Part shown: in pieces, positions 38,705 to 55,434 of the stretch
Numbering within the stretch: the stretch's first letter is position 1
Layout of the letters: each line of letters opens with the position of its first letter
NCBI RefSeq assembly: GCF_014218805.1
Contig: NZ_JACJUV010000001.1
Span: 992,001 to 1,056,000, forward strand
From: Teredinibacter franksiae
GTDB lineage: Bacteria > Pseudomonadota > Gammaproteobacteria > Pseudomonadales > Cellvibrionaceae
Reading direction: 5' to 3'
Length of the DNA stretch: 64,000 nucleotides
Position numbers and translations under genes: made by a program
The notes under the pieces: model-generated
Told to the model about the DNA's origin: nothing
Databases searched by the model: none
Seen by the model: the letters and a program-made list of their open reading frames with translations, nothing else

Positions 38705-38709
38705 TCCGG

Positions 38710-40698
38710 GTAAGAGCCGCCCTCACGGGCGACGCTCCCCACAGATCCGTACGTGACCTTTTAGTCATACGGTTCCTCGGTGATTGAGCACCAGCAGTGC
38801 TCAACATATGACTCTGTACCTGACAAACAACTACACCATTTTAGTGATTTTCGGTTCAGGCAACTTCCATACATCTAAAAATGCCTTAAATTTTTCCCAG
38901 TTAATAAAACCCTTTTGGGAACGGCGGCTCAGCCATTTACGCCAACTAGCTCGCACATACTGATAGAACATCCACAGGGATCGATAGTTACAGCGTATAC
39001 CGTAGTATCCATAGTGGCCATGTAGCTTTGACCTCAACCCTTTTAGCTGCTCTTTAACCGGTTCATGCTTGTTATTCCTGCAGTAGAGATAAATACTCCG
39101 CATCGCTCGCGCTTGGCGTTTCCTCATCGTCTGCCGCTTGACTACCCAATGACCGTTTCTAGACATTCCCCAGTAGTGGGTAAAACCTAGAAAATCGAAT
39201 GTTCCCGTACCGCTTTTATCTGTTAAACGGCTCGGCCAACGGAAGTGAACCATTTTACTCTTTTCCGGATGAATCGTAAGACCAAACTTAGCAAACCGCT
39301 TAGGAAGAACGCGCATTAACTTTTCCGCTTCTTTCTTGCTTTGGCAGCCGAGTATAAAATCGTCGGCAAACCTTACCAGAAAGCTCCTGCCTTGCAGCTT
39401 TCGCTGGGCCTGCGTTACAAACCATTCGTCTAAGACATGATGGAGGAATATATTGGCTATAAGAGGGCTGATCACCCCACCCTGTGGCGAACCACAGGCC
39501 GGGTAGATGACACGGCCTTCTTCAACAACGCCTGCCTTTAACCACCGTCCAATTACCTGCAAAATTTTCCCGTCATTTATTCGTAGCCGTAGTATTTCTC
39601 GAATACGATCGTGCGGCATTTTGTCAAAGAATTTACTGACGTCCGCATCGATAACGGTACTCACTTTTGCTTGGTAACACCCATCCCTAACGTCTTTTAG
39701 TGCATCGTGGGCACTACGTTTCTCTCTAAAGCCGTACGAGAAATCGTAGAAGTCCACTTCGTAAATGGCACTTAAGATCATCGCGATTGCTCTTTGCAAT
39801 AGCTTGTCTTCAAAAACAGGAATGCCTATGGGGCGCTGACTACCGTCTTCTTTATCAATCCATACACGCCGAATCAGGGGCGCTACGTAGCTCCCCTCTT
39901 TATAACGCTTAAGGAGGTGTTCGAGATTTGCTTTCAGGTTTTCAGCATAGTCTTGCGCTGTCACCTTGTCTGCTCCCGGTGCCGCATCCTTTCGGGTTTG
40001 GCGATAGGCTTCTCTTAATAGGTCAGCGTCAACTAGATGGTGTAGCGTGGTAAACACCCTCTTCGGGTGCAACCGTGCTTGTGCTCGTAGCTGATTAAGT
40101 TTTAGTGAGACAGTTTGTGATCTCAAGGTATCTCCTGTCGTTCGATTAACCAGCGTGTCATACCCGACTTCACCTTCCCTACAGTGGGTCCTTAAGGTAA
40201 TCGTTCCCCACCTTTCCGGCCAAAGGGTAACCACCTCTAACCATCGGTACTATGATCCGCTAAGACTTCCAAAATAGCTTCCTAGGTCTCTTCGCTCTCG
40301 CTATCGATTCCCAGTACCTGCGAGCTTCACAGCTTGTTTGTGTTTTCTTATCAGATACACTGTAAGAACTCTTCGATAAGTGCTGCAAAATACTTACCGA
40401 AGCCGGGCGTATTTCTATACCGGCATACCCTTGCCGGTTTCTCCTCCAGGACTACAATGGATCTCCCGAGTTTCCCGAATTACCCCTTTATGCACATGCC
40501 ACATTCAAAGACCCCGGTGGTGTCGCAAGTACTTGCCATAACGCACTTGAGACTGCAGCATTCCGATACACTCCAGCTCGTCTGCTTTCATATCTCTCGA
40601 TATTTATTGACCACAACTCTACAATATTTCAGGGCTCTATAAACAGCCTACACACTCGCTCCACCCTTGCTCCGCACACCGCGTTACCTTGGTCGCAC
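38710..40698 (-). mobile_element. Group II intron 1 (distinct subtype)
   Basis: The 5' end is set at GTGCGACC (minus strand, 40698), the canonical group II start. The 3' end follows domain V (GAACCGTATGAC-TAAAA-GGTCACGTACGG) and domain VI, with TTAC near 38710. The encoded protein and RNA differ clearly from introns 2 and 3. The left exon boundary is approximate (within a few bases). Confidence 0.75.
38831..40126 (-). CDS. ltrA: Group II intron reverse transcriptase/maturase (intron 1)
   Basis: The start at TTG 40126 is preferred: AGGAG lies 5 bases upstream, and it gives a family-like N-terminus (RSQTVSLKLNQLRAQARLHP); an upstream start at 40234 would extend into intron RNA domains. About 431 residues with RT motifs: DADVSKFFDKMPHD, CGSPQGGVISPLIANI, LVRFADDFILG (catalytic FADD) and a maturase domain with RRSQKGFINWEKF at the end. 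No HNH endonuclease domain follows, as in group IIC enzymes. It would splice and mobilise its host intron. Confidence 0.85.
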   Translation of the reverse strand: MRSQTVSLKLNQLRAQARLHPKRVFTTLHHLVDADLLREAYRQTRKDAAPGADKVTAQDYAENLKANLEHLLKRYKEGSYVAPLIRRVWIDKEDGSQRPIGIPVFEDKLLQRAIAMILSAIYEVDFYDFSYGFREKRSAHDALKDVRDGCYQAKVSTVIDADVSKFFDKMPHDRIREILRLRINDGKILQVIGRWLKAGVVEEGRVIYPACGSPQGGVISPLIANIFLHHVLDEWFVTQAQRKLQGRSFLVRFADDFILGCQSKKEAEKLMRVLPKRFAKFGLTIHPEKSKMVHFRWPSRLTDKSGTGTFDFLGFTHYWGMSRNGHWVVKRQTMRKRQARAMRSIYLYCRNNKHEPVKEQLKGLRSKLHGHYGYYGIRCNYRSLWMFYQYVRASWRKWLSRRSQKGFINWEKFKAFLDVWKLPEPKITKMV

Positions 40699-40839
40699 CC
40701 GGGCTTCACTACTAACCTATTGGCTAAATTTTAGTTTGGTGGGACTTGGATGGTTTATTATCCGCACCCACTGGGTAAACATGAGTCAATTTCAGAATCT
40801 AATCATTCATCCCAAGACTTCGGATTTTCCTCGGCACGA
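40699..40839. other. Unexplained 141 bases between intron 1 and the rest of attC-1
   Basis: Not present in the other family A cassettes. No gene, no attC and no intron signature recognised, though a second GTGCG occurs on the minus strand near 40783. It could be leftover from an earlier insertion. Confidence 0.5.
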
Positions 40840-41127
40840 GGAGCGACTGGTTATGCGGCGGCGGTTGGCGCTACAACAAAACCACTTTTTTAATTTAGTT
40901 TGCCGATGGCAGCAGGAAAGAACACACCACCCCACCAACAAACCCCATATTATGAAAGTGGTGGCTAAATGCGAATTGCTATTTACCACCACCTATAAAA
41001 CTTTCAATTGGCACCAGGAACAAAGCTGGTGAGATACAAAGAACCGACTTACTTTAATACCGAGAGACTCTCTACAACGTGCCGTAAATTAGGCACATGA
41101 CTCGTTTTATTTATTCTTGAACCGCGC
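40840..41127 (-). repeat. Repeated cassette body, copy c1
   Basis: First of seven copies of a ~270-bp cassette body that lacks a normal gene. It carries an extra base in the T-run near 40890, which breaks the 46-codon frame seen in copies c3, c5, c6 and c7. Confidence 0.85.
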
Positions 41128-41229
41128 TCATAACGCCCGCCTATGGCGCCGCAGTGGAGTTGGAATTTTTGTGGTACACCCACCACAAAAAGGCCGACGG
41201 AACGGTCACGCATGAGACGATTGTTAGGC
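41128..41229 (-). repeat. attC-2
   Basis: TCATAACGCC ... GTTAGGC, attC of the DUF805 cassette. The stop codon of the gene lies in the right core. Confidence 0.85.
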
Positions 41230-41715
41230 ACTTCCGCCATCTTTTGATTTTTTACGAAACCCTGGCCCATATTGATTCGCACCATTTGTTCCAGAAACAA
41301 ATAACAATAAAAACAAACCGATCGTAAGTATAGTCAATGGAATACCGAACCAAGGGTTAAAATCCATATCTTTGCAACGCTTTCCAGCGATCACAAATAT
41401 TATAACCAGCCAAAGAAAATAGAATACATAAAAGTACAATGGATCTTGGTGCAGAGCGCTAGTAAATCCACTCATAAGCAGAATTGGAATCGTTAATAAC
41501 AGTGACAAAACAAAGTCAATACGACCTATTCGATGCTTTAGTGAAAAGATTCGCGCGAGCCTATGAGGTGGCTCTTTGTCAACAAACTGGCCGACAACAG
41601 CATCCTTTTCCGAAGGATAAAGCTTTGCATCCGTACTTCTGCTTAGCATACATTTGGTACATACCCATACTCCTTCATCAATTCGTCTAGAGCATTTGCT
41701 ACATTCCCATTCCAT
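41224..41715 (-). CDS. Cassette gene: DUF805-like membrane protein with zinc ribbon
   Basis: The 163-residue protein starts with a C-x2-C...C-x2-C zinc ribbon (ECSKCSRRIDEGVWVCTKCM), followed by a DUF805-type membrane domain: FSLKHRIGRIDFVLSLLLTIP, further hydrophobic segments near 95-120 and 125-145, with GKRCKDMDFNPWFG between. DUF805 proteins are small inner-membrane proteins of unknown function. The TAA stop is inside the attC core, a tight fit found for several genes of this array. Confidence 0.75.
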   Translation of the reverse strand: MEWECSKCSRRIDEGVWVCTKCMLSRSTDAKLYPSEKDAVVGQFVDKEPPHRLARIFSLKHRIGRIDFVLSLLLTIPILLMSGFTSALHQDPLYFYVFYFLWLVIIFVIAGKRCKDMDFNPWFGIPLTILTIGLFLLLFVSGTNGANQYGPGFRKKSKDGGSA

Positions 41716-41722
41716 AAGAGAT

Positions 41723-41821
41723 CCCTAACGCCAAAATAATTCGCCGGAGCGAGATGGCTTTTTTTTGCTCCGCAAAAAAGAAGACATCTTGCGCAGGTCA
41801 GATTGACTGGCCTTGTTATAA
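41723..41821 (-). repeat. attC-3
   Basis: CCCTAACGCC ... GTTATAA, attC of the CPCC-protein cassette. Confidence 0.8.
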
Positions 41822-42145
41822 GTTTCTTGATTTAAGTTCATAACTGTTTCGTTGGTGCTCGGGAAGAACATGTTTTTCCATTTCCAGTTCACATGAACCA
41901 AACTCTTTAAAGTTTTGCCTACCTTCCCGCAATGTAATGCCGTGATTTGCCCCAGATTCGACATCTAACTCATCAATATCCTGACCATCATCTTCCCAAA
42001 AACAGATCGGACATATTAAGTAGTTGTTACGCTCAGGCAACGATATGTAATCACAGCAAGGGCACTGCTCCCTTGGAGTCGGGTCATCAGGTTCATACCA
42101 CTCAATTTTCTTGTTTTTAAAAATACTTACAATTTTCTTGAACAT
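41816..42145 (-). CDS. Cassette gene: cysteine-rich CPCC-family protein
   Basis: The start ATG 42145 (MFKKIVSIFKNKK) is chosen over a TTG at 42151. The protein of 109 residues has CPCCDYISLPERNNYLICPICFWEDDGQD followed by SGANHGITLREGRQNFKEFGSCE, the pattern of the Cys_rich_CPCC family (PF14206), likely a zinc-binding domain. Function is unknown; members are often found in mobile islands and as toxin-system neighbours. The stop codon TAA lies in the attC core. Intron 2 is inserted 13 bases before the start codon, at the cassette boundary. Confidence 0.8.
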   Translation of the reverse strand: MFKKIVSIFKNKKIEWYEPDDPTPREQCPCCDYISLPERNNYLICPICFWEDDGQDIDELDVESGANHGITLREGRQNFKEFGSCELEMEKHVLPEHQRNSYELKSRNL

Positions 42146-42158
42146 TTGCAATTACTTA

Positions 42159-44125
42159 GTCATGGTAGAACGGCCAGTTACCCAAGCCGCCCCCATACAG
42201 ATCCGGACGTGCGGAACTACCGCATCCGGCTCCTCAATAATATCGTTGCTCGTGTAATTCACAAGCCCTCAATACCAGTCCACTTGAATGTGACGTTTCC
42301 ACACCCGTGGTTGCTGGATCTGAAAGTATTTTAACATGTCTTTAAACCCTTGCCAGTTAAAGCTGTGCCGCTGACTTCGCCGATTGAGCCACTTGTATAG
42401 ACTATGCAGAACATAATCATAAACACGCGCGACACTTCGACTATTATCAGGCAAACCAAAGTAGTTTATAAAGCCCGTCAGCTTACGCCTTAACTGTGGC
42501 ATCCAGACATTCAGTCGTTTAGACCGATTGGCTTTTATCCACTGATAGAACTCGCTCAACTTAGCTTTGTGTTTCTTTGGTGCCGTATGTCGACGCAACC
42601 TAGCCTCACCCTTTTTATCAGTGTCCCAGTAGTACTCAAAGCCCAAGAATTCGAAGCTATGGTGCTGCCCTGGGTGGAACCGACTAAACCGCTTCAGGTG
42701 TGTTTTCTCTGGCGCTACGTCTAACTTAAACTCTCTCAAGCGTTTCGGTAGTTCCCGATAAAACTCACGCGCCTCATTAGCGTACTGGAACGCAACAACA
42801 AAATCGTCGGCGTACCGTATCAACATGGCTCGCCCCTGTAAGCGTGGCTTTATGCGTTTCTCAAACCAAATATCCAGTGCGTAATGTAAGTATATATTCG
42901 CCAATACCGGGCTGATCACACCGCCCTGTGGACTTCCACTGGCCGGTTTCTCAAACACCCCTTCTGGTGATTTTATTCTCGCTTTCAGCCACTGGTTGAT
43001 AAGGTTCAATAAGGCTTTATCTTCAATACGCTGTTTCAGCATACGCATCAACCACTCATGATCTATATTATCGAAGAAGCCTTTTATATCCGCTTCGACA
43101 ACATAACCATAAGTACCGTATTGAAGGTTCAACTGTAAACTATGCACCGCTTGATGCGCGCTTCTGTTCGGACGATAACCATAACTATTCTTCACAAAGT
43201 CCTGCTCCCAAATACTTTGCAGTATCTGACTCACGCTTTGCTGTACGATTTTATCATCTAACGTTGGCAGCCCGAGCGGGCGTAGTTTACCGTTGGATTT
43301 TGGGATAAAGACCCGCTTCACATCATTCGCTCGATAGCTTTTACACTTTAGCGTTTGATGCAGGCGGTTGATATTTTCAGGCAATCGTTGTTTGAAATCG
43401 CTAGGTGTTACGCCGTCAATTCCACACGCCGATTGTTTATTGATTTGACCCCAACTTTGTACCAACAAATCCGAATCTAGCAATCCGTATAGATTCTGGA
43501 AACGATGATTAGGGTGGGTTTGTGCCTTAAATGCTATGGTATGCAATGCGGTTGTCATAGTTTCTCCAGCCCGACTTGTCCGGACTATGTGTCTGTTACA
43601 TACCGTGATATTACTGTCAGCCCCCTCGCCATGTGAACGGCTTTCCCGCTCTCAGACTACTATGAGCTGATCCGACTTCCAAGGTGCCATCGATCTGCCT
43701 CGCTTTTTACTCAGCGTCACTACCCACTTCCTGCGGGAGCTACTTTGGATCTCTCAAGTTCTCGAAAACATCTCTTTATACATGCCACGGTTTGATAACT
43801 CCGCCAACTCGCCACAACCTTGCCAACTAATGGTTGTATTGCATGGGCTTCGGCGGCGTTACAAGCCTAGCCAGTCAGGACAATTTATTATCAGAGCGAT
43901 ACCAACACTTCAGGAACACGCATTCCTTATGGCCTACATAATTCTCTGTCTACGCTTCACACTGGTTGTTCGATTATTTGTTGAAGAAAAAAAAATCAGC
44001 AACAGGAAAGTATTCGCGATCCATAATCTCCGCACAGTGCGCAAGACTCGATACAGGTGGCTGGCTAGACCTTACCCGACTGGGACTTACACCCAGCAAG
44101 ATGCTCCAAGCTTAACTTGTCGCAC
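42159..44125 (-). mobile_element. Group II intron 2, inserted in an attC core site
   Basis: 1967 bases from GTGCGACAAG (5' end, 44125) to CATGAC (3' end, 42159). Both ends were fixed by comparison with the second copy at 46957 and with uninterrupted array junctions. The 5' exon is ...GGCGTTA (end of attC-4) and the 3' exon TAAGTAATTG. Domain V is GAGCCGGATGCGG-TAGT-TCCGCACGTCCGGATC. Features fit the group IIC introns known to target attC. Confidence 0.9.
42269..43558 (-). CDS. ltrA: Group II intron reverse transcriptase/maturase (intron 2)
   Basis: The 429-residue protein, identical to that of intron 3. RT motifs: EADIKGFFDNIDHEWL, ASGSPQGGVISPVLANIY, LIRYADDFVVAF (catalytic YADD); maturase domain with PQLRRKLTGFINYFGLPDNS; no endonuclease domain. 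It needs its intron RNA to splice and to reverse-transcribe into new attC sites. The frame is intact. Confidence 0.9.
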   Translation of the reverse strand: MTTALHTIAFKAQTHPNHRFQNLYGLLDSDLLVQSWGQINKQSACGIDGVTPSDFKQRLPENINRLHQTLKCKSYRANDVKRVFIPKSNGKLRPLGLPTLDDKIVQQSVSQILQSIWEQDFVKNSYGYRPNRSAHQAVHSLQLNLQYGTYGYVVEADIKGFFDNIDHEWLMRMLKQRIEDKALLNLINQWLKARIKSPEGVFEKPASGSPQGGVISPVLANIYLHYALDIWFEKRIKPRLQGRAMLIRYADDFVVAFQYANEAREFYRELPKRLREFKLDVAPEKTHLKRFSRFHPGQHHSFEFLGFEYYWDTDKKGEARLRRHTAPKKHKAKLSEFYQWIKANRSKRLNVWMPQLRRKLTGFINYFGLPDNSRSVARVYDYVLHSLYKWLNRRSQRHSFNWQGFKDMLKYFQIQQPRVWKRHIQVDWY

Positions 44126-44236
44126 TAACGCCTGTAGCACCTGCACAAATTGTGACGTGCTTTTTGGTGTATTGTGAGCAACGCGAACGCCAAAAGGCGC
44201 GTTGCAATTTGTGTCAGGTGCCTACACTTGTTAAGT
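44126..44236 (-). repeat. attC-4 (family D)
   Basis: TAACGCCTGTAGCACCTGC ... GTTAAGT; closely related to attC-23. Its outer core base triplet is now separated by intron 2. Confidence 0.85.
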
Positions 44237-44266
44237 GCCAGGCACATTATTTATTTTTAGGAGTTA

Positions 44267-44509
44267 CTAGCTTACAGATTGTAAACTAATAGCTGCATAC
44301 CGAAGGATATAAGGCTTAACTTTTTCAGCAGTTTCAAAATCCGGAATATCTTTACCCCAAAATGCTACGTAGCAATCTTTGCAATCAAGTTCCTTGTCAT
44401 GCCATGTTGATATTACTATACCGTATTCATCATCCTTATCTGGACACGAAAGCTTTACCATTTTCCCGACGACGATATTGTTTTCATGTTCTTTAGGATT
44501 CATTTTCAT
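44267..44509 (-). CDS. Cassette gene: hypothetical protein, 80 residues
   Basis: The start ATG 44509 lies just inside the cassette, with AAGTGG upstream. The protein (VVGKMVKLSCPDKDDEYGIVISTWHDKE...CYVAFWGKDIPD) looks like a small beta-rich domain, possibly KOW/SH3-like, with a Cys pair. I do not recognise a family. A longer frame would run back through attC-5 and is rejected. Confidence 0.6.
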   Translation of the reverse strand: MKMNPKEHENNIVVGKMVKLSCPDKDDEYGIVISTWHDKELDCKDCYVAFWGKDIPDFETAEKVKPYILRYAAISLQSVS

Positions 44510-44514
44510 TTGCC

Positions 44515-44634
44515 ACTTAACGCTAAGGTAGCCTGCGTTGCATATGGAGCTGTTTTTTGTGCAAGAATGTAGCGAAGCGGAATGCACAAAAAAGCGGCGG
44601 AGTATGCAGCGTCAGGGTGACCGACTGGTTATGC
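44515..44634 (-). repeat. attC-5 (family B)
   Basis: ACTTAACGCTAAGGTAGCC ... GGTTATGC; nearly identical to attC-18 and similar to attC-19. It belongs to repeated cassette copy c2. Confidence 0.88.
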
Positions 44635-44899
44635 GGCGGCGGTTGGCGCTACAACAAAACCACGTTTTTAATTTAGTTTGCCAATGGCAGCAGGAACGAA
44701 CACACCACCAACAAGCCCCACATTATAAAAGCGGTGGCTAAATGCGAAGTGCTATTTACCACCACCTATAAAACTACTATTTGGCACCAGGAACAAAGCT
44801 GGTGAGATACAAGAACCTACTTACTTTAACGCCGAGAGACCCGCTACAACGTGCCGTAAATTAGGCACATGACTCATTTTATTTATTTACGGACCGTGC
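44635..44899 (-). repeat. Repeated cassette body, copy c2
   Basis: Copy of the ~270-bp cassette body, with a small deletion near 44705 and the extra T also seen in c1 and c4, so the short frame is broken. Confidence 0.85.
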
Positions 44900-45016
44900 T
44901 CATAACGCCTTGCACACTTGCGCTGTGGTTGGAGCCGCTTGCCGTGCAATAATGAGCGTAGCGAATGCACGGCAAGCTGCGGATACCACGGCGTCGAGTG
45001 GTGCAACTTGTTAAGT
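44900..45016 (-). repeat. attC-6
   Basis: TCATAACGCCTTGC ... GTTAAGT, attC of the small membrane protein cassette. Confidence 0.85.
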
Positions 45017-45322
45017 GTTGACACGCCCATACAAATACTTAACTCCACTTATAATTAGTAAGACCAACATTCCACTTGTACCCACATCGATGATAAAAAC
45101 AACGCCAAAAAAGCCTATGCCAGATTTTATAACTTCTATTGGGCTGGTAGCCGTTGCTATTAGCGCGAACACGGCCGCAACAAACGGAATATATGAAACG
45201 TGCCTATCAATACCTGCCTTCTTATTTCTGTAATTTTCAAAGATGCAGAAATAATTGAGCACCAACGTATACAAAGATACGGCGCAGCAAAAAACAAATA
45301 CTATCCATTGGATTATGTTCAT
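45011..45322 (-). CDS. Cassette gene: small membrane protein, 103 residues
   Basis: The start ATG 45322 has AGCAGG upstream. Three hydrophobic segments (about 3-25, 45-65 and 75-98) predict an inner-membrane protein, with a charged loop (ENYRNKKAGIDRH) after the first. No family recognised. The TAA stop lies in the attC core. Frames extending upstream would cross attC-7. Confidence 0.65.
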   Translation of the reverse strand: MNIIQWIVFVFCCAVSLYTLVLNYFCIFENYRNKKAGIDRHVSYIPFVAAVFALIATATSPIEVIKSGIGFFGVVFIIDVGTSGMLVLLIISGVKYLYGRVNT

Positions 45323-45336
45323 ACCTGCTTTCTTAC

Positions 45337-45450
45337 ACTTAACGCCGCTGTAACCTGCCCAAATTATGGAGCAGTTTTGTGCGATAATGAGCGCAGCGAA
45401 TTGCACAAAATCGCGTAGTAATTTGGGTCAGGTTTACAGCCTTGTTAGGC
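45337..45450 (-). repeat. attC-7
   Basis: ACTTAACGCCGCTG ... GTTAGGC. Confidence 0.85.
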
Positions 45451-45457
45451 ATGTAGC

Positions 45458-45829
45458 CTAGTTACCTTTTGGGTAGTTATAATACAAGCTCTCGACAAAC
45501 TTAAACCTTTCACTGTAAAGCCACTGCACAATGCGCTCTACATCAGGCACTCCCACCTCGCTGCCTATCACTGAGGTCAATTTTGGGCGAATGTAGAAAC
45601 ACTTGTCACTTTCGCCAACTCCGATCTCAGGGTTTACACCAATAAAAAGTCCCGGCCCCAACCAAGCATGACCACTCTCACGCTCGTTGATTTTTATCAC
45701 AAATGAAAATTCAAGTTCTACAAATTTGACTTTTAGAGCTCTGACCTCGCTTGCACCGTAATCTTGAAGCTGCTTGAATTTATCTGTTTGTATAATTTCC
45801 CAGTCAAGGGATTTCCCAGATACTTTCAT
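45458..45829 (-). CDS. Cassette gene: hypothetical protein, 123 residues
   Basis: An ATG at 45829 starts a soluble, mixed alpha/beta protein without signal (MKVSGKSLDWEIIQTDKFK...GLFIGVNPEIGVGESDK...VQWLYSERFKFV). Composition and size are like immunity-type or other integron orphan proteins. No family recognised. Confidence 0.65.
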   Translation of the reverse strand: MKVSGKSLDWEIIQTDKFKQLQDYGASEVRALKVKFVELEFSFVIKINERESGHAWLGPGLFIGVNPEIGVGESDKCFYIRPKLTSVIGSEVGVPDVERIVQWLYSERFKFVESLYYNYPKGN

Positions 45830-45834
45830 ATATT

Positions 45835-45932
45835 GCCTAACGCCTCAAACACCGGCTTGGTTAAGTTGGCGAATTTTTTGGAACAAAAAAGGTGACAACT
45901 TTAACAAGTCCGCGTGCTTTGACTTGTCAACT
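45835..45932 (-). repeat. attC-8, degenerate right core
   Basis: GCCTAACGCC opens the site; arms CAAACACCGG and CCGCGTGCTTTG pair, and an inner CTTGGTTAAGTTG pairs with CAACTTTAACAAG. The closing core reads GTCAACT instead of GTTRRRY, so this site may recombine poorly. Confidence 0.65.
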
Positions 45933-46518
45933 ATGTCGCCTACGTCTTCTTGATTGTATAGCTGAAAGTGCTAGCGCTATTAATCCCGAGCCAAATAGCA
46001 AGATACCTGGCGGTTCCGCTACTGACGCAAACTTGATATCAAGCGATAAATGCGTATTCGCAGTGGATCCGATTCCAGACAAATCGATGTATATATTATC
46101 TACATCAAACGTAATTCTTGACTCATCAAATATTGCTAACCCTCCCCAAGAATTAGTAAATCCATCTGTAGCTGTATTTAAACTGACATCTATTATGTCA
46201 TTAATTGCTAAATTTATATCCTGAAATACGAGAAACTCAGAGTAACTATACATAGATCCTGGTCGCCAGTGATCAATAGTGATGCCGTTGTCAGAAACAT
46301 CAATTATTTTTTCATTGAAAGCTCCGTATAACGGTATCTCTACCTCATCACCAACCAAGATATTGGTACTATAGAAAGTGCCACCTGGACCAAAGAAAGG
46401 AGAAGGAGGAATATATGTATGTATGTACTTCCATTGCTTGTCCAATTAGGCCTGCGTTAGCATTTACTCCAAACATGATGAATAAAAGCATATACAGAAA
46501 CTTAGTAACCTTTACCAT
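45927..46518 (-). pseudogene. Cassette gene: PEP-CTERM protein, frameshifted at a tetranucleotide repeat
   Basis: From ATG 46518 (AGAGG 8 bases upstream) a signal peptide is encoded (MVKVTKFLYMLLFIMFGVNA-NA). The frame then shifts at an ACAT repeat near 46415-46430. The rest of the protein continues in the next frame to 45927 (from FGPGGTFYSTNILVGDEVEI), ending with the PEP-CTERM sorting signal: VAEPPGILLFGSGLIALAL followed by Arg-rich RRRRR. Removal of one 4-base unit would restore one frame of about 196 codons. PEP-CTERM proteins are exported and anchored by an exosortase, expected elsewhere in the genome. Confidence 0.7.
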
Positions 46519-46566
46519 TTTATTGCCTCTTCAAATGAGCTGATATATGTGTTTTCCTACTTAGGT

Positions 46567-46683
46567 AGTTAACGCTAAGCTCATAAGCGCCTACTGTGTA
46601 GTTTGTTTTACGCTAAAATGTAGCGAAGCGGAATGCGTAAAACAAACTACACAGTTGGCGTCTTATGGAGCGACTGGTTATGC
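46567..46683 (-). repeat. attC-9 (family A)
   Basis: AGTTAACGCTAAGCTC ... GGTTATGC, attC of repeated cassette copy c3. Confidence 0.88.
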
Positions 46684-46818
46684 GGCGGCAGTAAGTACCA
46701 CAACAAAACCACGTTTTATTTTAGCTTGCCAATGGCAGCAGGAAAGAACACACCGCCCCACCAACAAACCCCATACTATAAAAGCGGTGGCCAAATGCGA
46801 AGTGCTATTTGCCACCAC
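46678..46818 (-). CDS. Possible 46-residue hydrophobic peptide, copy c3
   Basis: Below the usual size limit: GTG at 46818 (or 46815) to a TAA at 46678-46680 that lies exactly in the attC core, as for six larger cassette genes here. The peptide has one hydrophobic helix (HLATAFIVWGLLVGRCVLSCC) and a basic stretch (QAKIKR). The same frame of identical length is kept in copies c5, c6 and c7. A stop codon directly precedes the GTG and no good ribosome binding site is seen, so translation is uncertain. Confidence 0.35.
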   Translation of the reverse strand: MVANSTSHLATAFIVWGLLVGRCVLSCCHWQAKIKRGFVVVLTAAA

Positions 46819-46956
46819 CTATAAAACGACTATTTGGCACCAGGAACAAAGCTAGCGAGACACAAAGAACCTACGTACGTTAACGCCGAGAGACCCGCTA
46901 CAACGTGCCGTAAATCAAGCACATGACTCGTTTTATTTATTTTCGAACCGCGCTCA
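46684..46956 (-). repeat. Repeated cassette body, copy c3
   Basis: Copy of the ~270-bp body, ending (plus strand) at GAACCGCGCTCA, where intron 3 is inserted. Confidence 0.88.
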
Positions 46957-48923
46957 GTCATGGTAGAACGGCCAGTTACCCAAGCCGCCCCCATACAGAT
47001 CCGGACGTGCGGAACTACCGCATCCGGCTCCTCAATAATATCGTTGCTCGTGTAATTCACAAGTCCTCAATACCAGTCCACTTGAATGTGACGTTTCCAC
47101 ACCCGTGGTTGCTGGATCTGAAAGTATTTTAACATGTCTTTAAACCCTTGCCAGTTAAAGCTGTGCCGCTGACTTCGCCGATTGAGCCACTTGTATAGAC
47201 TATGCAGAACATAATCATAAACACGCGCGACACTTCGACTATTATCAGGCAAACCAAAGTAGTTTATAAAGCCCGTCAGCTTACGCCTTAACTGTGGCAT
47301 CCAGACATTCAGTCGTTTAGACCGATTGGCTTTTATCCACTGATAGAACTCGCTCAACTTAGCTTTGTGTTTCTTTGGTGCCGTATGTCGACGCAACCTA
47401 GCCTCACCCTTTTTATCAGTGTCCCAGTAGTACTCAAAGCCCAAGAATTCGAAGCTATGGTGCTGCCCTGGGTGGAACCGACTAAACCGCTTCAGGTGTG
47501 TTTTCTCTGGCGCTACGTCTAACTTAAACTCTCTCAAGCGTTTCGGTAGTTCCCGATAAAACTCACGCGCCTCATTAGCGTACTGGAACGCAACAACAAA
47601 ATCGTCGGCGTACCGTATCAACATGGCTCGCCCCTGTAAGCGTGGCTTTATGCGTTTCTCAAACCAAATATCCAGTGCGTAATGTAAGTATATATTCGCC
47701 AATACCGGGCTGATCACACCGCCCTGTGGACTTCCACTGGCCGGTTTCTCAAACACCCCTTCTGGTGATTTTATTCTCGCTTTCAGCCACTGGTTGATAA
47801 GGTTCAATAAGGCTTTATCTTCAATACGCTGTTTCAGCATACGCATCAACCACTCATGATCTATATTATCGAAGAAGCCTTTTATATCCGCTTCGACAAC
47901 ATAACCATAAGTACCGTATTGAAGGTTCAACTGTAAACTATGCACCGCTTGATGGGCGCTTCTGTTCGGACGGTAACCATAACTATTCTTCACAAAGTCC
48001 TGCTCCCAAATACTTTGCAGTATCTGACTCACGCTTTGCTGTACGATTTTATCATCTAACGTTGGCAGCCCGAGCGGGCGTAGTTTACCGTTGGATTTTG
48101 GGATAAAGACCCGCTTCACATCATTCGCTCGATAGCTTTTACACTTTAGCGTTTGATGCAGGCGGTTGATATTTTCAGGCAATCGTTGTTTGAAATCGCT
48201 AGGTGTTACGCCGTCAATTCCACACGCCGATTGTTTATTGATTTGACCCCAACTTTGTACCAACAAATCCGAATCTAGCAATCCGTATAGATTCTGGAAA
48301 CGATGATTAGGGTGGGTTTGTGCCTTAAATGCTATGGTATGCAATGCGGTTGTCATAGTTTCTCCAGCCCGACTTGTCCGGACTATGTGTCTGTTACATA
48401 CCGTGATATTACTGTCAGCCCCCTCGCCATGTGAACGGCTTTCCCGCTCTCAGACTACTATGAGCTGATCCGACTTCCAAGGTGCCATCGATCTGCCTCG
48501 CTTTTTACTCAGCGTCACTACCCACTTCCTGCGGGAGCTACTTTGGATCTCTCAAGTTCTCGAAAACATCTCTTTATACATGCCACGGTTTGATAACTCC
48601 GCCAACTCGCCACAACCTTGCCAACTAATGGTTGTATTGCATGGGCTTCGGCGGCGTTACAAGCCTAGCCAGTCAGGACAATTTATTATCAGAGCGATAC
48701 CAACACTTCAGGAACACGCATTCCTTATGGCCTACATAATTCTCTGTCTACGCTTCACACTGGTTGTTCGATTATTTGTTGAAGAAAAAAAAATCAGCAA
48801 CAGGAAAGTATTCGCGATCCATAATCTTCGCACAGTGCGCAAGACTCGATACAGGTGGTTGGCTAGACCTTACCCGACTGGGACTTACACCCAGCAAGAT
48901 GCTCCAAGCTTAACTTGTCGCAC
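46957..48923 (-). mobile_element. Group II intron 3, same insertion position as intron 2
   Basis: 1967 bases, the same length as intron 2 and differing at only a few positions (for example near 47053, 47955 and 48827). The 5' exon is ...GGCGTTA (end of attC-10) and the 3' exon TGAGCGCGG; the empty junction GGCGTTATGAGCGCGG occurs at 51989 and 53411-53417, so insertion was clean, between GTTA and T. Confidence 0.92.
47067..48356 (-). CDS. ltrA: Group II intron reverse transcriptase/maturase (intron 3)
   Basis: The 429-residue protein is identical to that of intron 2, with YADD catalytic motif in LIRYADDFVVAF and maturase domain, no endonuclease. Identity of two copies in one array points to recent transposition or segmental duplication. 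Frame intact. Confidence 0.9.
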   Translation of the reverse strand: MTTALHTIAFKAQTHPNHRFQNLYGLLDSDLLVQSWGQINKQSACGIDGVTPSDFKQRLPENINRLHQTLKCKSYRANDVKRVFIPKSNGKLRPLGLPTLDDKIVQQSVSQILQSIWEQDFVKNSYGYRPNRSAHQAVHSLQLNLQYGTYGYVVEADIKGFFDNIDHEWLMRMLKQRIEDKALLNLINQWLKARIKSPEGVFEKPASGSPQGGVISPVLANIYLHYALDIWFEKRIKPRLQGRAMLIRYADDFVVAFQYANEAREFYRELPKRLREFKLDVAPEKTHLKRFSRFHPGQHHSFEFLGFEYYWDTDKKGEARLRRHTAPKKHKAKLSEFYQWIKANRSKRLNVWMPQLRRKLTGFINYFGLPDNSRSVARVYDYVLHSLYKWLNRRSQRHSFNWQGFKDMLKYFQIQQPRVWKRHIQVDWY

Positions 48924-49031
48924 TAACGCCGCTATAAATTGCGGCTTTGGAGTTGATTGATTTGTGGTAGCGTAGCGTTAAGCCACAAAACAAGCGACGG
49001 AAAAGCCGTCAATTTGATAGCTTTGTTAGAT
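48924..49031 (-). repeat. attC-10
   Basis: TAACGCCGCTATAAATTGCG ... GTTAGAT; intron 3 abuts its outer core. Confidence 0.85.
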
Positions 49032-49520
49032 TTGGGCAGCAACAGCATATTCGACACTAAGAACCCTTTTACCACTATATACATTCAGAATTCTTAAAAT
49101 AATCCAACTACCGCCACCGTCTATGATTATTTTCTCACCTTGACTGTAACTACCAATATTTTTCCGCTCCTGCAACAACTTAACGACAGAAGTCAGATCT
49201 TTGCGTAGATACGAAGACGCGCTCTTAATAGCCGTTATAGTTGCTTCTATAACAGCTCCTCCCCCCTCATCTCCATCCACAAACCTTACTGCCAAACTTA
49301 TACTATTGTTGTGGCAGCCTCCCTGAGACAGCTCATAGCTGATACCATCACTACCCACGAAGTTTTCTACAACATAGTGTTGCGGCCAGCCTATATCATA
49401 CTGGCTTACCTTTTCCTTAATTACTGCAGGCTCAGGTACGGTAACACTACATCCCTCGGCTAACGTCAGATTAGCGAAAAATAAAAATAGTGCTAATAGA
49501 AAAAGATAGAAATTGTTCAT
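49026..49520 (-). CDS. Cassette gene: exported hypothetical protein
   Basis: The start ATG 49520 gives a signal peptide (MNNFYLFLLALFLFFANLTLA-EG). The mature part (about 140 residues) has CSVTVPEPAVIKEKV near its start and an acidic GDEGGG loop; it looks periplasmic, mixed alpha/beta. No family recognised. TAA stop in the attC core. Confidence 0.65.
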   Translation of the reverse strand: MNNFYLFLLALFLFFANLTLAEGCSVTVPEPAVIKEKVSQYDIGWPQHYVVENFVGSDGISYELSQGGCHNNSISLAVRFVDGDEGGGAVIEATITAIKSASSYLRKDLTSVVKLLQERKNIGSYSQGEKIIIDGGGSWIILRILNVYSGKRVLSVEYAVAAQI

Positions 49521-49526
49521 AGTAAA

Positions 49527-49640
49527 ATCTAACGCCAAGCTCACCTGCAGTTTTTGCGGAGAGCAATTGTGTAAAATGGAGCCACGCGACATACACAATT
49601 GAGCGCAGCAAAAAATGTCAGGTGCAGCTTCTTGTTATGT
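49527..49640 (-). repeat. attC-11 (family C)
   Basis: ATCTAACGCCAAGCTCACC ... GTTATGT; nearly identical to attC-13 and attC-17. Confidence 0.88.
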
Positions 49641-50099
49641 TTAACACGCCTTTATTTTCATTTTCTTAACGGATTGAGATTCGTATTGTGAAACATTATC
49701 TTCACCGGTAACTTCATTTCGTAAATAGACACCATACTCACCCTCTATAATTTTAATTTGATACAAATACATATTCTCCTTTTGATCCATTGGTAAAACA
49801 TCGATATATGCTGATTCCCGATATGTAGTGCCGAACTCCTTATCACTTGGATTTTCTAGCAATGCCCTTAACCCTTCTTCTTCAGTAGGGTACCTTCCGT
49901 TATCTCGCTTGAACATTAACAAAGCCATTTCAATTTGAGAAAAATCATGCTTTGATTTATTTACTTCTATATCTATGCAATTAATGCGTGGAGAAAACAT
50001 CAAAGCAGCTAAAAATACGACTAACACCGCTAAGACCAAAACAAGAATCGAGGACATAGCTATTTTCAACGATTTACTCCGATTCTTCGAGCAGAACAT
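49641..50099 (-). CDS. Cassette gene: GspG-like (type II secretion pseudopilin domain) protein
   Basis: The start ATG 50099 lies inside the attC core (GTTATG). 152 residues: short basic start, one membrane segment (AMSSILVLVLAVLVVFLAALMF), then a T2SSG-like domain: FSQIEMALLMFKRDNGRYPTEEEGLRALLENP closely follows the major pseudopilin pattern (IEMALxxYKLDNGxYPTTEQGLxALxxxP). The classic prepilin peptidase motif before the helix is not evident, so it may be a membrane-anchored relative rather than an assembled pseudopilin. Such a domain inside an integron cassette is unusual. Confidence 0.72.
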   Translation of the reverse strand: MFCSKNRSKSLKIAMSSILVLVLAVLVVFLAALMFSPRINCIDIEVNKSKHDFSQIEMALLMFKRDNGRYPTEEEGLRALLENPSDKEFGTTYRESAYIDVLPMDQKENMYLYQIKIIEGEYGVYLRNEVTGEDNVSQYESQSVKKMKIKAC

Positions 50100-50208
50100 A
50101 ACGCCCTGCAGCAGCGGCCGCCGTGGAGGTGTTGGTTTTTGCAGTAGCGTAGCGACCACTGCAAAAAAAACACCGGAACGGAGGTCCGGCTGACTGAGTT
50201 GGTTATGG
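50096..50208 (-). repeat. attC-12
   Basis: ACATAACGCCCTGC ... GTTATGG. Confidence 0.85.
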
Positions 50209-50652
50209 TTTTTTACACGGGTCATGTAATTCAACGGATAATTTCCCTGAACTCTCAACGTCGTAACTGTGGACAGTTAAATAAGGTTTCAACATTTTCT
50301 TCTCAGCTTTCTTACAGCTACCGACATCGCCATAAGGGATATTGATACGGAAAAATGACCCGAATATTCCCACATCATTTACAACCCACACTCCTGAAAT
50401 ATCAGGGTCAATCAGACCTTTCAAAACCCTATTGGAAACATCTACGTATTGATTATAAATCCTAACACGCAAATAAACCGCTTTTGATTTACTCTCACTA
50501 TTCACAACCTGCAACTTCACCGTATAGGCATCTTCCCCATATCTGTCTTCTCCATCGAGGACATAACTCGTTGGATTGGCGAGGTAAGGCTCATTTGCCG
50601 ACACGCCAAGCGAAAAAAATACAAGACAATAAATGAGATACTTTTTTTTCAT
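50203..50652 (-). CDS. Cassette gene: exported hypothetical protein
   Basis: The 149-residue protein has a signal peptide (MKKKYLIYCLVFFSLGVSA-NE). The mature part is beta-rich (AYTVKLQVVNSESKSKAVYLRVRIYNQ), with a Cys pair (GSCKKAEKK, HDPCKK). Periplasmic; no family recognised. TAA stop in the attC core. Confidence 0.65.
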   Translation of the reverse strand: MKKKYLIYCLVFFSLGVSANEPYLANPTSYVLDGEDRYGEDAYTVKLQVVNSESKSKAVYLRVRIYNQYVDVSNRVLKGLIDPDISGVWVVNDVGIFGSFFRINIPYGDVGSCKKAEKKMLKPYLTVHSYDVESSGKLSVELHDPCKKP

Positions 50653-50661
50653 CTAATTGAA

Positions 50662-50775
50662 CCATAACGCCAAGCTCACCTGCAGTTTTTGCGGAGAGCA
50701 ATTGTGTAAAATGGAGCGCAGCGACATACACAATTGAGCGTAGCAAAAACTGTCAGGTGCAGCTTTTTGTTATGT
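50662..50775 (-). repeat. attC-13 (family C)
   Basis: CCATAACGCCAAGCTCACC ... GTTATGT. Confidence 0.88.
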
Positions 50776-50776
50776 T

Positions 50777-51217
50777 CTATTTCTTTAATAATTTGCTCCA
50801 CCATCGTATCCCGTGCTCACCAAGTATTAACAACACAACAATTGCAGCAACGAAAATCCAAATAGAAGTCGAGTATGCTACTGTAGCTATTCCAAGTATT
50901 GAGCTGGGTAATATGATAAACAAAGCCCAATATGATGGAACAACTAACTTTTCGCTAATTCGATATTCTGATATATCAGTAGTTGACTCGATTATTAGCT
51001 GCTGCCATTCAGTGAAAGATTCAGCTTCCCAGTTATTTTCTTGCTTGAGGTTTGAAACGTCATACCTCTTTGGCTCGCCACCAAACCAATTGTACCAAGC
51101 TACTGACTCTTCTTCAGGAATCATAGCTAATGGTACGTCAAACTCCTTAATATAGAATCGCGTTCCTTTTGGAAATTCTTCTTCTCTAGGTATTCGCATA
51201 ATTTTGTGGTTGAACAT
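50777..51217 (-). CDS. Cassette gene: membrane protein of unknown function
   Basis: The ATG 51217 lies in the attC core (GTTATGT); a second ATG is 6 codons later. 146 residues: a soluble N-terminal part (EFDVPLAMIPEEESVAWYNWFGG...FTEWQQLI) and two membrane segments near the end (SYWALFIILPSSILGIATVAYS; IWIFVAAIVVLLILG). No family recognised. Confidence 0.65.
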   Translation of the reverse strand: MFNHKIMRIPREEEFPKGTRFYIKEFDVPLAMIPEEESVAWYNWFGGEPKRYDVSNLKQENNWEAESFTEWQQLIIESTTDISEYRISEKLVVPSYWALFIILPSSILGIATVAYSTSIWIFVAAIVVLLILGEHGIRWWSKLLKK

Positions 51218-51330
51218 AACGCTAAGCTCATAAGCGCCTACTGTGTAGTTTGTTTTACGCTAAAATGTAGCGAAGCGGAATGCGTAAAACGAACTGCGCA
51301 GTTGGCGTCTTATGGAGCGACTGGTTATGC
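51214..51330 (-). repeat. attC-14 (family A)
   Basis: ACATAACGCTAAGCTC ... GGTTATGC, attC of repeated copy c4. Confidence 0.88.
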
Positions 51331-51601
51331 GGCGGCAGTAAGTGCTACAACAAAACCACGTTTTTAATTTAGTTTGCCGATGGCAGCAGGAAAGAACACA
51401 CCACCCCACCGACAAACCCCATACTATAAAAGCGGTGGCCAAATGCGAAGTGCTATTTACCACCACCTATAAAACTACTATTTGGCACCAGGAAAGAAAC
51501 TGGTGAGATACAAAGAACCTACGTACTTTAACGCCGAGAGACGTTCTACAACGTGCCGTAAATCAAGCACATGACTCGTTTTATTTATTTTCGAACCGCG
51601 C
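51331..51601 (-). repeat. Repeated cassette body, copy c4
   Basis: Copy of the ~270-bp body with the extra T (near 51365) that shifts the short frame, which then reads on into the attC. Directly followed by copy c5. Confidence 0.88.
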
Positions 51602-51718
51602 TCATAACGCTAAGCTCATAAGCGCCTACTGTGTAGTTTGTTTTACGCTAAAATGTAGCGAAGCGGAATGCGTAAAACGAACTGCGCAGTAGGCGTCTTA
51701 TGGAGCGACTGGTTATGC
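51602..51718 (-). repeat. attC-15 (family A)
   Basis: TCATAACGCTAAGCTC ... GGTTATGC, attC of copy c5. Confidence 0.88.
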
Positions 51719-51853
51719 GACGGCAGTAAGTACCACAACAAAACCACGTTTTATTTTAGCTTGCCAATAGCAGCAGGAACGAATACACCGCCCCACCGAC
51801 AAACCCCATATTGTAAAAGCGGTGGCCAAATGCGAAGCCCTATTTACCACCAC
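51713..51853 (-). CDS. Possible 46-residue hydrophobic peptide, copy c5
   Basis: Same 141-base frame as in c3, with substitutions (NRASHLATAFTIWGLSVGRC) and the TAA in the attC core. Translation unproven. Confidence 0.35.
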   Translation of the reverse strand: MVVNRASHLATAFTIWGLSVGRCIRSCCYWQAKIKRGFVVVLTAVA

Positions 51854-51988
51854 CTAGAAAACTACTATTTGGCACCAGGAAAGAAACTGGTGAGATACAA
51901 AAAACCGACTTACTTTAACGCCGAGAGTCCTGCTACAACGTGCCGTAAATCAAGCACATGACTCGTTTTATTTATTTTCGAACCGCGC
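51719..51988 (-). repeat. Repeated cassette body, copy c5
   Basis: Copy of the ~270-bp body in tandem with c4. Confidence 0.88.
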
Positions 51989-52102
51989 TCATAACGCCGC
52001 TAGAACCTGCACAGCGTGCGTAGCGGATTTTTGGTGTATTGTGGCAGAGCCACACCAAAAAGGAGCGTAGCATGCAGTGTCAGGTTGCTAGCTTGGTTAT
52101 GC
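51989..52102 (-). repeat. attC-16
   Basis: TCATAACGCCGCTAGAACC ... GTTATGC. Confidence 0.85.
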
Positions 52103-52492
52103 ATATAGCTCTCGCAAAGAACTGTGGTCCTTGGATATAAAGTACTCAATCGCTTTACGGGCCTGCTTTAAACTGAAAGTATCTGCACTTAGATTCACTG
52201 TACCCTGCTTCTTAGAAAAGCCAAACCAAGCGCTAACTTCTCTAGGAAAATAGCACTCTGAAACAAACATAGGGTTGTCGTTATCACCATATCCCGAAAC
52301 CCACACATACTCTTCTTCTGATTTTATAATCACACTGAGCGTTGGAGAGCACTTTTCCAGCTCATTAGCCTTCTTAACCTCCCCAGACCAATCAAATTCA
52401 TCGAATGCCGATAGCGCATCGGACGAAATATTTATATTTCTATCTTCTGACTCACTATGAGAATGGTGTGCATATTGAAAGTTAAGTTTCAT
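52097..52492 (-). CDS. Cassette gene: hypothetical protein, 131 residues
   Basis: An acidic soluble protein without signal (MKLNFQYAHHSHSESEDRN...EEYVWVSGYGDNDNPMFVSECYFPREVSAWFGFSKKQG...LKQARKAIEYFI). Alternating beta and alpha stretches resemble immunity-type proteins; no family recognised. TAA stop in the attC core. Confidence 0.65.
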   Translation of the reverse strand: MKLNFQYAHHSHSESEDRNINISSDALSAFDEFDWSGEVKKANELEKCSPTLSVIIKSEEEYVWVSGYGDNDNPMFVSECYFPREVSAWFGFSKKQGTVNLSADTFSLKQARKAIEYFISKDHSSLRELYA

Positions 52493-52509
52493 TTAAATTC
52501 TCGATTAAT

Positions 52510-52623
52510 GCATAACGCCAAGCTCACCTGCAGTTTTTGCGGAGAGCAATTGTGTAAAATGGAGCTACGCGACATACACAATTGAGCGTAGCAAAAAATG
52601 TCAGGTGCAGCTTCTTGTTATGT
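52510..52623 (-). repeat. attC-17 (family C)
   Basis: GCATAACGCCAAGCTCACC ... GTTATGT. Confidence 0.88.
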
Positions 52624-53021
52624 GGGCGATCTACTTCACGGAAAAACACTACGTTGCGAAACGCGAGTGAAGCTTTTGCCGACGACTGGCGATAGAAAAC
52701 TGCCCTACACACTCACTACCATTTTAGTTTAAAACATGAAGAACGAACGGGGAAAACTTGATAGCGACTCCCTGCTACGGACTCCTTAATTGCGATGGTT
52801 AAACCTACCACGACATTCTAAAACGAACAAGATGCCAAAACAAACCACTCGCTATTTGATCACATTCAGACTTGCAGAATACTCAGCGGTGCTCAATGCT
52901 AGATAGCCAATTTAGATTATCGAACCACCTAAACCTACAAACTAAAATTCCGCCACAAACCAAATAAACTTACCTACGAAGTAAAAAAACTAAAATTAAT
53001 TACAAAATTAAAGGCAGAGCC
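52624..53021. other. Cassette body without recognisable gene
   Basis: About 400 bases between attC-17 and attC-18. No frame above about 60 codons on the cassette strand that stays clear of the attC. It may be a decayed or non-coding cassette. Confidence 0.6.
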
Positions 53022-53140
53022 ATATAACGCTAAGGTAGCCTGCGTTGCATATGGAGCTGTTTTTTGTGCAAGAATGTAGCGAAGCGAAATGCACAAAAAG
53101 CGGCGGAGTATGCAGCGTCAGGGTGACCGACTGGTTATGC
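53022..53140 (-). repeat. attC-18 (family B)
   Basis: ATATAACGCTAAGGTAGCC ... GGTTATGC, attC of copy c6. Confidence 0.88.
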
Positions 53141-53275
53141 GACGGCAGTAAGTACCACAACAAAACCACGTTTTATTTTAGCTTGCCAATGGCAGCAGGA
53201 AAGAACACACAACCCCACCAACAAACTCCATATTACGAAAGTGGTGGCTAAATGCGAAGTGCTATTTACCACCAC
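53135..53275 (-). CDS. Possible 46-residue hydrophobic peptide, copy c6
   Basis: Same 141-base frame (HLATTFVIWSLLVGLCVLSCC, then QAKIKRGFVVVLTAVA). Ends in the attC core although this attC is family B, not A. Confidence 0.35.
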   Translation of the reverse strand: MVVNSTSHLATTFVIWSLLVGLCVLSCCHWQAKIKRGFVVVLTAVA

Positions 53276-53410
53276 CTATAAAACTACTATTTGGCACCAG
53301 GAAAGAAACTGGTGAGATACAAAAAATCCACTTACATTAACGCCGAGAGACGCTCTACAACGTGCCGTAAATCAAGCACATGACTCATTTTATTTATTTT
53401 CGAACCGCGC
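53141..53410 (-). repeat. Repeated cassette body, copy c6
   Basis: Copy of the ~270-bp body carrying a family B attC; in tandem with c7. Confidence 0.88.
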
Positions 53411-53528
53411 TCATAACGCTGAGGTAGCCTGCGCTGCATACGGAGCTGTTTTTGTGCAAGAATGAAGCGAAGCGTAATGCACAAAAAACGGCGGAGTATG
53501 CAGCGTCAGGTTGACCGACTGGTTATGC
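53411..53528 (-). repeat. attC-19 (family B)
   Basis: TCATAACGCTGAGGTAGCC ... GGTTATGC, attC of copy c7. Confidence 0.88.
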
Positions 53529-53663
53529 GACGGCAGTAAGTACCACAACAAAACCACGTTTTATTTTAGCTTGCCAATGGCAGCAGGAAAGAACACACAA
53601 CCCCACCAACAAACTCCATATTACGAAAGTGGTGGCTAAATGCGAAGTGCTATTTACCACCAC
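53523..53663 (-). CDS. Possible 46-residue hydrophobic peptide, copy c7
   Basis: Same frame and sequence as in c6. Translation unproven. Confidence 0.35.
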   Translation of the reverse strand: MVVNSTSHLATTFVIWSLLVGLCVLSCCHWQAKIKRGFVVVLTAVA

Positions 53664-53798
53664 CTATAAAACTACTATTTGGCACCAGGAAAGAAACTGG
53701 TGAGATACAAAAAACCCACTTACATTAACGCCGAGAGACTCTCTACAACGTGCCGTAAATCAAGCACATGACTCATTTTATTTATTTTCGAACCGCGC
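53529..53798 (-). repeat. Repeated cassette body, copy c7
   Basis: Copy of the ~270-bp body, nearly identical to c6. Confidence 0.88.
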
Positions 53799-53930
53799 TC
53801 ATAACGCCGCCAGCAGCGGCAGATTACATGGAGCACCTTTTGTGAAACAATGAGCGCAGCGAACACAAAAGGTGCGGAGTGTAAGCTGTCCAACCCACGA
53901 AGTGGGTGTTGCTGACTGGCCTTGTTATGT
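53799..53930 (-). repeat. attC-20 (longest site)
   Basis: TCATAACGCCGCCAGC ... GTTATGT, about 130 bases, with an extra CCAACCCACGAAGTGGGTG hairpin inside. Confidence 0.85.
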
Positions 53931-54965: not shown

Positions 54966-54972
54966 GAATTTT

Positions 54973-55302: not shown

Positions 55303-55310
55303 CGATATTC

Positions 55311-55427: not shown

Positions 55428-55434
55428 GTTGGGA

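Follow-up and report, generated by a model that had tools for sequence, protein, structure and literature searches.

A recurrent integron cassette of Teredinibacter franksiae without an open reading frame belongs to a family-wide superfamily and may regulate its neighbours in cis

We analysed a stretch of 64,000 nucleotides from Teredinibacter franksiae (Cellvibrionaceae; NCBI RefSeq assembly GCF_014218805.1, contig NZ_JACJUV010000001.1, positions 992,001 to 1,056,000 of the forward strand), here called the window, in which a chromosomal integron carries repeated copies of a cassette, family C, whose body of ~276 nt lacks a conserved open reading frame (ORF). Judged by sequence, C belongs to a superfamily of cassettes that lack an ORF, are often present in several copies and, in our survey, were confined to one bacterial family. 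This recurrence across the family suggests that C does a job, most likely that of regulating its neighbours, and the reading that we favour, with a probability of about 0.5, is that its body is kept as a cis-regulatory cassette.

Distribution and core of the superfamily

C aligns with ORF-less cassettes from other genera of the family over a core of ~160 nucleotides (nt) of nearly constant length. A sequence-only profile, R1, was built on an alignment of 23 sequences, contributed by 8 genomes and anchored on a core picked around the motif E1 (AGTTTCGTTCCT), so that the conservation of E1 in the profile is partly a matter of choice. With the best 20 candidates scored per genome of the family and the best 9 per genome outside it, under strict filters that lose weak matches, R1 had matches among the scored candidates in 42 of 143 same-family genomes, from 8 of 32 genera, and at least two matches in 27 of these genomes. 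Training sequences had come from 8 of the positive genomes (4 genera) and none from the other 34. Outside the family, none of the best 9 candidates in each of 320 other gammaproteobacterial genomes was a match. An earlier reading of the window, made from its letters alone (the sequence-only reading), had proposed selection for the body as a possible reason for its multiplication and had pointed to other genomes as the place to look; relatives were indeed found there by the profile, and their conservation across the family supports such selection.

At all ten R1 loci that we checked, an attC-like site followed the match at a distance of 55-73 nt, and at seven of them a second one lay upstream, the bodies being 263-294 nt long. 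The longest ATG-initiated ORF on either strand of seven delimited cassettes from other genomes has 23-87 amino acids (aa). The core comprises E1 and a second element, E3 (TTCTTTCC), so that TTCKTTCC occurs twice, ~102 nt apart. This spacing is 102-103 nt in 35 of the 36 host copies scored (out of 39); of 45 matches elsewhere 26 were scored, all with a spacing of 100-104 nt. Consensus sequences were drawn up for 16 genomes of four genera, leaving out four weak matches (E 0.0015-0.006) in G006, a genome of the host genus; 12 of these sequences contain E1 in its exact form. Over the whole window, E1 with at most two mismatches occurs 10 times against 5.7 expected, a count that 6 of 100 shuffles reach; since this is not clearly above chance, E1 carries meaning only within its cassette. 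The surroundings of intI showed no E1-like site.

The wider kin of C emerged only through cassette scans and the profile. A DNA search of 58 related genomes returned, beyond the host itself, short matches in one congener only, and plasmid, phage and viral collections gave no match. A 31-nt pattern (at most 3 mismatches) was found in 2 of 144 family genomes, host included, an underestimate that the profile corrected.

Copies in the host genome and their movement

The C body occurs in 40 places on contig C1 of the host genome, 39 of them full-length (30 distinct sequences) and one partial (167 nt), in six arrays holding 4 (one partial), 7, 17, 1, 1 and 10 copies. This recurrence is far above chance. 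The sequence-only reading noticed seven of the copies, in a window whose array is one of six, and its idea of an element multiplying inside integrons is borne out. Two types of attC accompany the bodies: 21 copies have type B, 15 type A and two a type A deleted to 28 nt, one site (that of window copy c1) is split, and the partial copy has none. A and B have common ends and a common centre and differ in their arms, 85 columns out of 125 in their alignment being identical. The attC lies on the 3' side in 38 of the 39 full-length copies (36 sites of 111-114 nt, two of 28 nt), the 39th being c1. The two copies with the shortened site (L035 ~2694-3000 and L039 ~5872-6180) are probably frozen in place.

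Byte-identical units of body plus attC form six groups, three of which span different arrays and three of which lie within one array. The sequence upstream diverges immediately in every one of the six groups, and the downstream flanks differ in four; in the remaining two, each copy is followed by a further C cassette. From identical units in different arrays with differing flanks, and from a copy directly behind an attI/leader region, we infer that C cassettes were probably moved as whole body-plus-attC units by the integrase. In a scan of 121 intervals, each running from one attC to the next, every other repeated family had two members, except one of six that consists of intervals where a missed attC fused C with its neighbour; the attC sites were found with a home-made scan that overlooks some of them, so some intervals contain two cassettes. 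A direct search of the genome for another ORF-less cassette, T, gave 7 matches, 4 at ≥95%.

The array in the window extends leftward from the integrase gene, with the attI/leader to the left of IntI:

56710..57690, plus strand: IntI, an integron-type tyrosine recombinase, above the TIGR02249 cut-off
56396..56685, minus strand: attI/leader region

The cassettes carry their attC 3' of the body and have G^TT borders, unit identity stops at these borders, and both IntI and attI are present. Copies of the attI/leader (260-290 nt, 90-97% identical) stand at the head of four other arrays, at C1 positions 82887-83146, 2767879-2768168, 3185890-3186156 and 3387820-3388104, and all five leaders end in ATATACAAATG^TTA. 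The first cassette after the leader is a C at 3186157 and a T at 2768166. Because five arrays are headed by attI and IntI is the only integron integrase among the six array regions fetched, it is probable that this one enzyme acts on several attI platforms. The arrays that have an attI head and lack intI are integrase-less satellites, only the window region having intI. A stretch of 102 aa on contig C8 (624193-624498), which shares 54% identity with the beginning of IntI, is possibly an integrase fragment. Two 319-aa frames, at C1 3402844-3403542 and 2802330-2803007, contain tyrosine recombinases that are distant from IntI, one inside an array and one near another.

The seven copies in the window

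The seven bodies measure 271-277 nt and are 86.6-99.3% identical to c6. The assignment of type A sites to c1, c3, c4 and c5 and of type B sites to c2, c6 and c7 was confirmed, as were the tandem pairs c4-c5 and c6-c7; the c1 site is of type A as proposed, but it is not intact, a group II intron splitting it. The cassettes run on the minus strand, hence each attC lies to the left of its own body, and the border TTA is assigned here to the preceding attC.

38608..38704, minus strand: remainder of c1 attC A (positions 15-111, 94.8% identity)
38705..40839, minus strand: group II intron within the c1 attC, ends approximate, with a reverse transcriptase (RT) ORF at 38831-40234
40840..40853, minus strand: first 14 nt of c1 attC A, ahead of the intron
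40854..41130, minus strand: c1 body, ORF-less cassette of family C
44518..44631, minus strand: c2 attC, type B
44632..44902, minus strand: c2 body
46570..46680, minus strand: c3 attC, type A
46681..46956, minus strand: c3 body
51217..51327, minus strand: c4 attC, type A
51328..51604, minus strand: c4 body
51605..51715, minus strand: c5 attC, type A
51716..51991, minus strand: c5 body
52624..53027, minus strand: ORF-less cassette of family T, adjoining c6
53025..53137, minus strand: c6 attC, type B
53138..53413, minus strand: c6 body
53299..53310, minus strand: E1 core in c6, AGTTTCTTTCCT
53414..53525, minus strand: c7 attC, type B
53526..53801, minus strand: c7 body
54545..54857, minus strand: ORF-less cassette of family U

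The E1 core starts at 41016 in c1, 44789 in c2, 46842 in c3, 51490 in c4, 51877 in c5 and 53687 in c7. The c6 body and attC are identical to the copies at genome positions 3077021 and 3186157. The intron in the c1 site matches RF02005 at 40502-40748 and RF00029, slightly under the cut-off, at 38704-38777. The 5' end of the c3 body adjoins another group II intron (RT 47067-48356), placed between c3 and the preceding attC. There are three such introns in the window (38705-40839, 42159-44125 and 46957-48923, ends approximate); two have identical 429-aa RTs and are placed at the GTTA border of an attC, and the third, with a 467-aa RT, is placed inside an attC arm.

Why body and attC type disagree

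Copies that share a body carry different attC types, which the sequence-only reading took to suggest attC swapping by recombination between cassette body and attC. The uncoupling of body and attC holds, but no evidence points to a special recombination at their joint, and homologous recombination or gene conversion between copies would be enough. The 30 distinct bodies have 48 biallelic informative sites; of the 1128 pairs that these form, 511 fail the four-gamete test, and the minimum number of recombination events (Rmin) is 19. In a test like the pairwise homoplasy index, near sites were more compatible than shuffled ones, none of 1000 shuffles being as low with a 30-nt window (p=0.003 at 60 nt and p=0.032 at 100 nt). 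Body and attC distances are correlated (Mantel r=0.157, p=0.002, n=36; 0.234 within A and 0.239 within B), a value inflated by the inclusion of identical copies; this weak agreement falls short of the matching trees expected from simple duplication. In windows of 46 nt, a link with attC type is found at body positions 91-226 and not at 1-91 or 226-271, and 9 of 44 single sites show such a link at p<0.05 (uncorrected), including columns 261 and 275 beside the attC. The site incompatibility and the weak link between body and attC type point to exchange along the body. Yet another attC type is found three times in the window with different cassette bodies (49521-49640, 50656-50775 and 52504-52623), which shows that a shared attC type is no peculiarity of family C.

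ORF-less cassettes as a class

Family C has no conserved ORF, the longest in 19 delimited copies having 48-97 aa on varying strands and those above 70 aa (5 of the 19) lying on the antisense strand. For comparison we used six genomes of the host genus (G000 and G003-G007), whose 212 cassette families were divided by rough rules into 15 ORF-less and 193 coding-like ones, with 4 unassigned and with intervals ≥700 nt or containing N left out. At least three copies in one genome were present in 8 of the 15 ORF-less and 3 of the 193 coding-like families, and two of those three are homologous to ORF-less families. Nine distinct non-trivial pairs of ORF-less families matched each other with nhmmer below E 0.05, always on the sense strand (30 raw matches, some pairing one family under two names), and no ORF-less family matched any of 190 coding cassettes.

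The top 6-mer of a scan, TTCGTT, was present on the sense strand of 11/15 ORF-less and 26/193 coding families (p=1.2e-6, uncorrected for the scan) and on the antisense strand of 2/15 and 28/193, respectively. It occurs in 12 of the 15 ORF-less representatives, against a shuffle mean of 3.8 and maximum of 9. When 19 stretches of further family members, belonging to other genera or species, were examined (143 intervals, with L151 excluded as too short), it was found in 8/16 ORF-less and 12/96 coding cassettes. Its position along ORF-less bodies was not significantly biased (Kolmogorov-Smirnov p=0.15; 9/14 versus 6/27 at 0.5-0.8). The integrons of 12 gammaproteobacterial genomes outside the family (100 intervals, L137 excluded as too short) contained one ORF-less interval and no multi-copy ORF-less family. 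Local folding energy was rejected as a mark of the ORF-less class, which is not more stable than 40 coding cassettes (p=0.13).

The families amplified differ among congeners. Alteromonadaceae bacterium Bs31 (G007) has three diverged C cassettes and 41 matches to family U, of which the host genome has 3 (2 full, 1 partial). In the 40 kb beside intI of G003-G006 and in nine Bs31 contigs, repeated families are mostly ORF-less; one is common to G003, G005 and G006, and the others with at least five members are confined to single genomes. The ORF-less families seen in G003-G006 differ from the R1 superfamily. With less certainty, such lineage-specific amplification may be turnover between interchangeable ORF-less cassettes, for which the two congeners, one with ~40 C and few U and the other the reverse, offer a natural experiment. 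Several short Bs31 contigs (L115-L123) stop within or near U copies, so the Bs31 integron seems broken up by the repeat. Transposase-like genes were seen by inspection inside the G003 and G005 arrays (L109-L112; families F8 and F10).

Possible functions of the C body

Two observations speak for a cis-regulatory role. Gene cassettes start near their edge (in 198 coding cassettes the median distance from the edge to the ATG is 19 nt, and it reaches ≥60 nt in 10), and, of the gene-less Vibrio cassettes assayed by Blanco et al. (2024, PMC11014356), most act as promoters on the sense strand. The C body would act in cis in long arrays, where the gene cassettes leave little space for promoters of their own, and RNA polymerase, a regulator or the transcript would read the E1/E3 pair. 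The integrase would have moved the units, and homologous recombination would have mixed bodies among the ~40 copies, thereby uncoupling the attC type. As a tentative extension, the superfamily could be an ancient one common to the whole bacterial family, and E1/E3 could be what a dedicated host factor recognises, the interchangeable, lineage-specifically amplified cassettes forming a genome-wide regulon that switches on integron genes in many arrays at once.

Several results weigh against a cis-regulatory role. No σ70-like signal was found in C, the best sense scores of 8-11 shifting in position and comparing with a shuffle mean of 9.1 (standard deviation 1.6), and a consensus scan of C gave 0 promoter-like and 0 terminator-like sites; promoter prediction reportedly fails for proven gene-less promoter cassettes too (PMC11014356). 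Tandem runs reach six, and 15 of 38 copies are followed by another C, an arrangement not needed for a role of one promoter per gene. E1 is exact in none of the 39 full host copies (AGCTTTGTTCCT in 20, AGTTTCTTTCCT in 13, other forms in 6) and is broken in the consensus of two other genomes (G144 and G035). Among the congeners, R1 matches at the threshold of the survey were absent from G002-G006 and numbered one in G001.

Alternatively, C might be a selfish or neutral hitchhiker without a cell function, spread by efficient attC A and B sites, tandem duplication and several attI platforms. This is a serious possibility, albeit one to which we give the smaller part of our credence: tandem runs and identical copies speak for it, five attI-headed arrays are available to one IntI among six regions, and selfishness was one of the two options offered for Vibrio (Boucher et al. 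2006, PMC1382264). Against it, A- or B-like sites away from C, besides the split site of c1, occur in three places (79-88% identity, one partial), in intervals that cluster with nothing else. Moreover, the body core is alignable across genera, and the most repeated bodies are again ORF-less in Bs31 (U), G004, G005 and G006.

A further rival, to which we give only slightly less weight, is that C encodes a structured small RNA or RNA leader whose sense-strand hairpins, CACCAG..CTGGTG and GTGGTGGTAAATAGC..GCATTTAGCCACC, would act in trans or in cis; the signs of constraint at the RNA level within C are suggestive. Over 30 bodies, the 20 stem pairs chosen by eye from the consensus comprise 554 Watson-Crick pairs, 39 sense G.U, 1 A.C and 6 others; the two types of transition number 9 versus 2 in the stems and 29 versus 43 outside (Fisher p=0.02), mostly keeping sense G.U pairs. 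Pairing (96.0% versus 93.8% in shuffles) and covariation (0.148 versus 0.114) were each unmatched in 500 shuffles, in tests inflated by related copies. Pooled over seven families the signal has p=0.016, but C alone is individually below 0.05. There is a precedent in the integron-encoded sRNA-Xcc1 (cited in PMC8876359). Nevertheless, no fold is common to the genera (consensus −1.13 kcal/mol), folding energy is not clearly under that of shuffles and gains nothing on the sense strand (z −1.21 sense and −1.66 antisense), ORF-less families do not exceed the 40 sampled coding ones in stability, and, as noted, C has no terminator-like site. Two gathering-threshold scans (137 kb and 126 kb) gave 0 Rfam matches, and at E≤1 positions 38000-58000 of the window matched only group II intron families and, below threshold, MIR810 on the c3 attC.

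A decayed protein gene or tiny-peptide cassette is very improbable, since the ORFs of 48-97 aa that might speak for it switch strand between copies and give way to ORFs of 23-87 aa in the delimited cassettes elsewhere. Least credible is an assembly artefact in which repeats were collapsed or falsely multiplied, for although copies are highly identical and stand in tandem pairs in the window, the 39 full copies include 30 distinct sequences with many different neighbours, and similar arrays exist in other genomes.

Comparison with known systems

As far as our literature search reached, four things seem new: the superfamily, the motif in its core, the fact that two congeners have amplified C and U in opposite ways, and the presence of several arrays headed by attI. 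In addition, no comparable family-wide, alignable ORF-less set was found in the literature searched. Such a set with a short core provides a handle for mutation tests of regulator versus passenger, and it touches on two open questions, the silence of large integron tails and the role of non-coding cassettes.

Saccharophagus degradans (PMC2386152), probably of the same bacterial family, likewise has a core integron and satellite clusters with a common repeat; there the repeat lies between genes and gene duplicates, and the text covered names no ORF-less cassette family. The integron-encoded sRNA-Xcc1 (Chen et al. 2011, cited in PMC8876359) is non-coding, as is C with its possible RNA function, but C lacks a fold conserved across genera. 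Cassettes with an attC and no ORF, situated between gene cassettes, are described from oral metagenomes (PMC6557892) and as gene-less promoter cassettes of Vibrionaceae (PMC11014356); for the latter promoter activity was measured, whereas C belongs to a conserved multi-copy superfamily known from sequence. The large array of Vibrio sp. DAT722 also includes ORF-less cassettes; its expression was measured, and a promoter was located at the junction before a coding cassette (PMC2945992).

A close likeness is to the non-coding cassettes of Vibrio superintegrons (PMC1382264), which are ORF-less, strongly paralogous and taxon-restricted, and for which high copy number (45 in V. vulnificus CMCP6), gene conversion and the alternatives of a selfish or regulatory nature were already published in 2006. 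The Vibrio cassettes have close homologues (>80%) or none, whereas C is from another bacterial family and has diverged relatives that share a core across genera.

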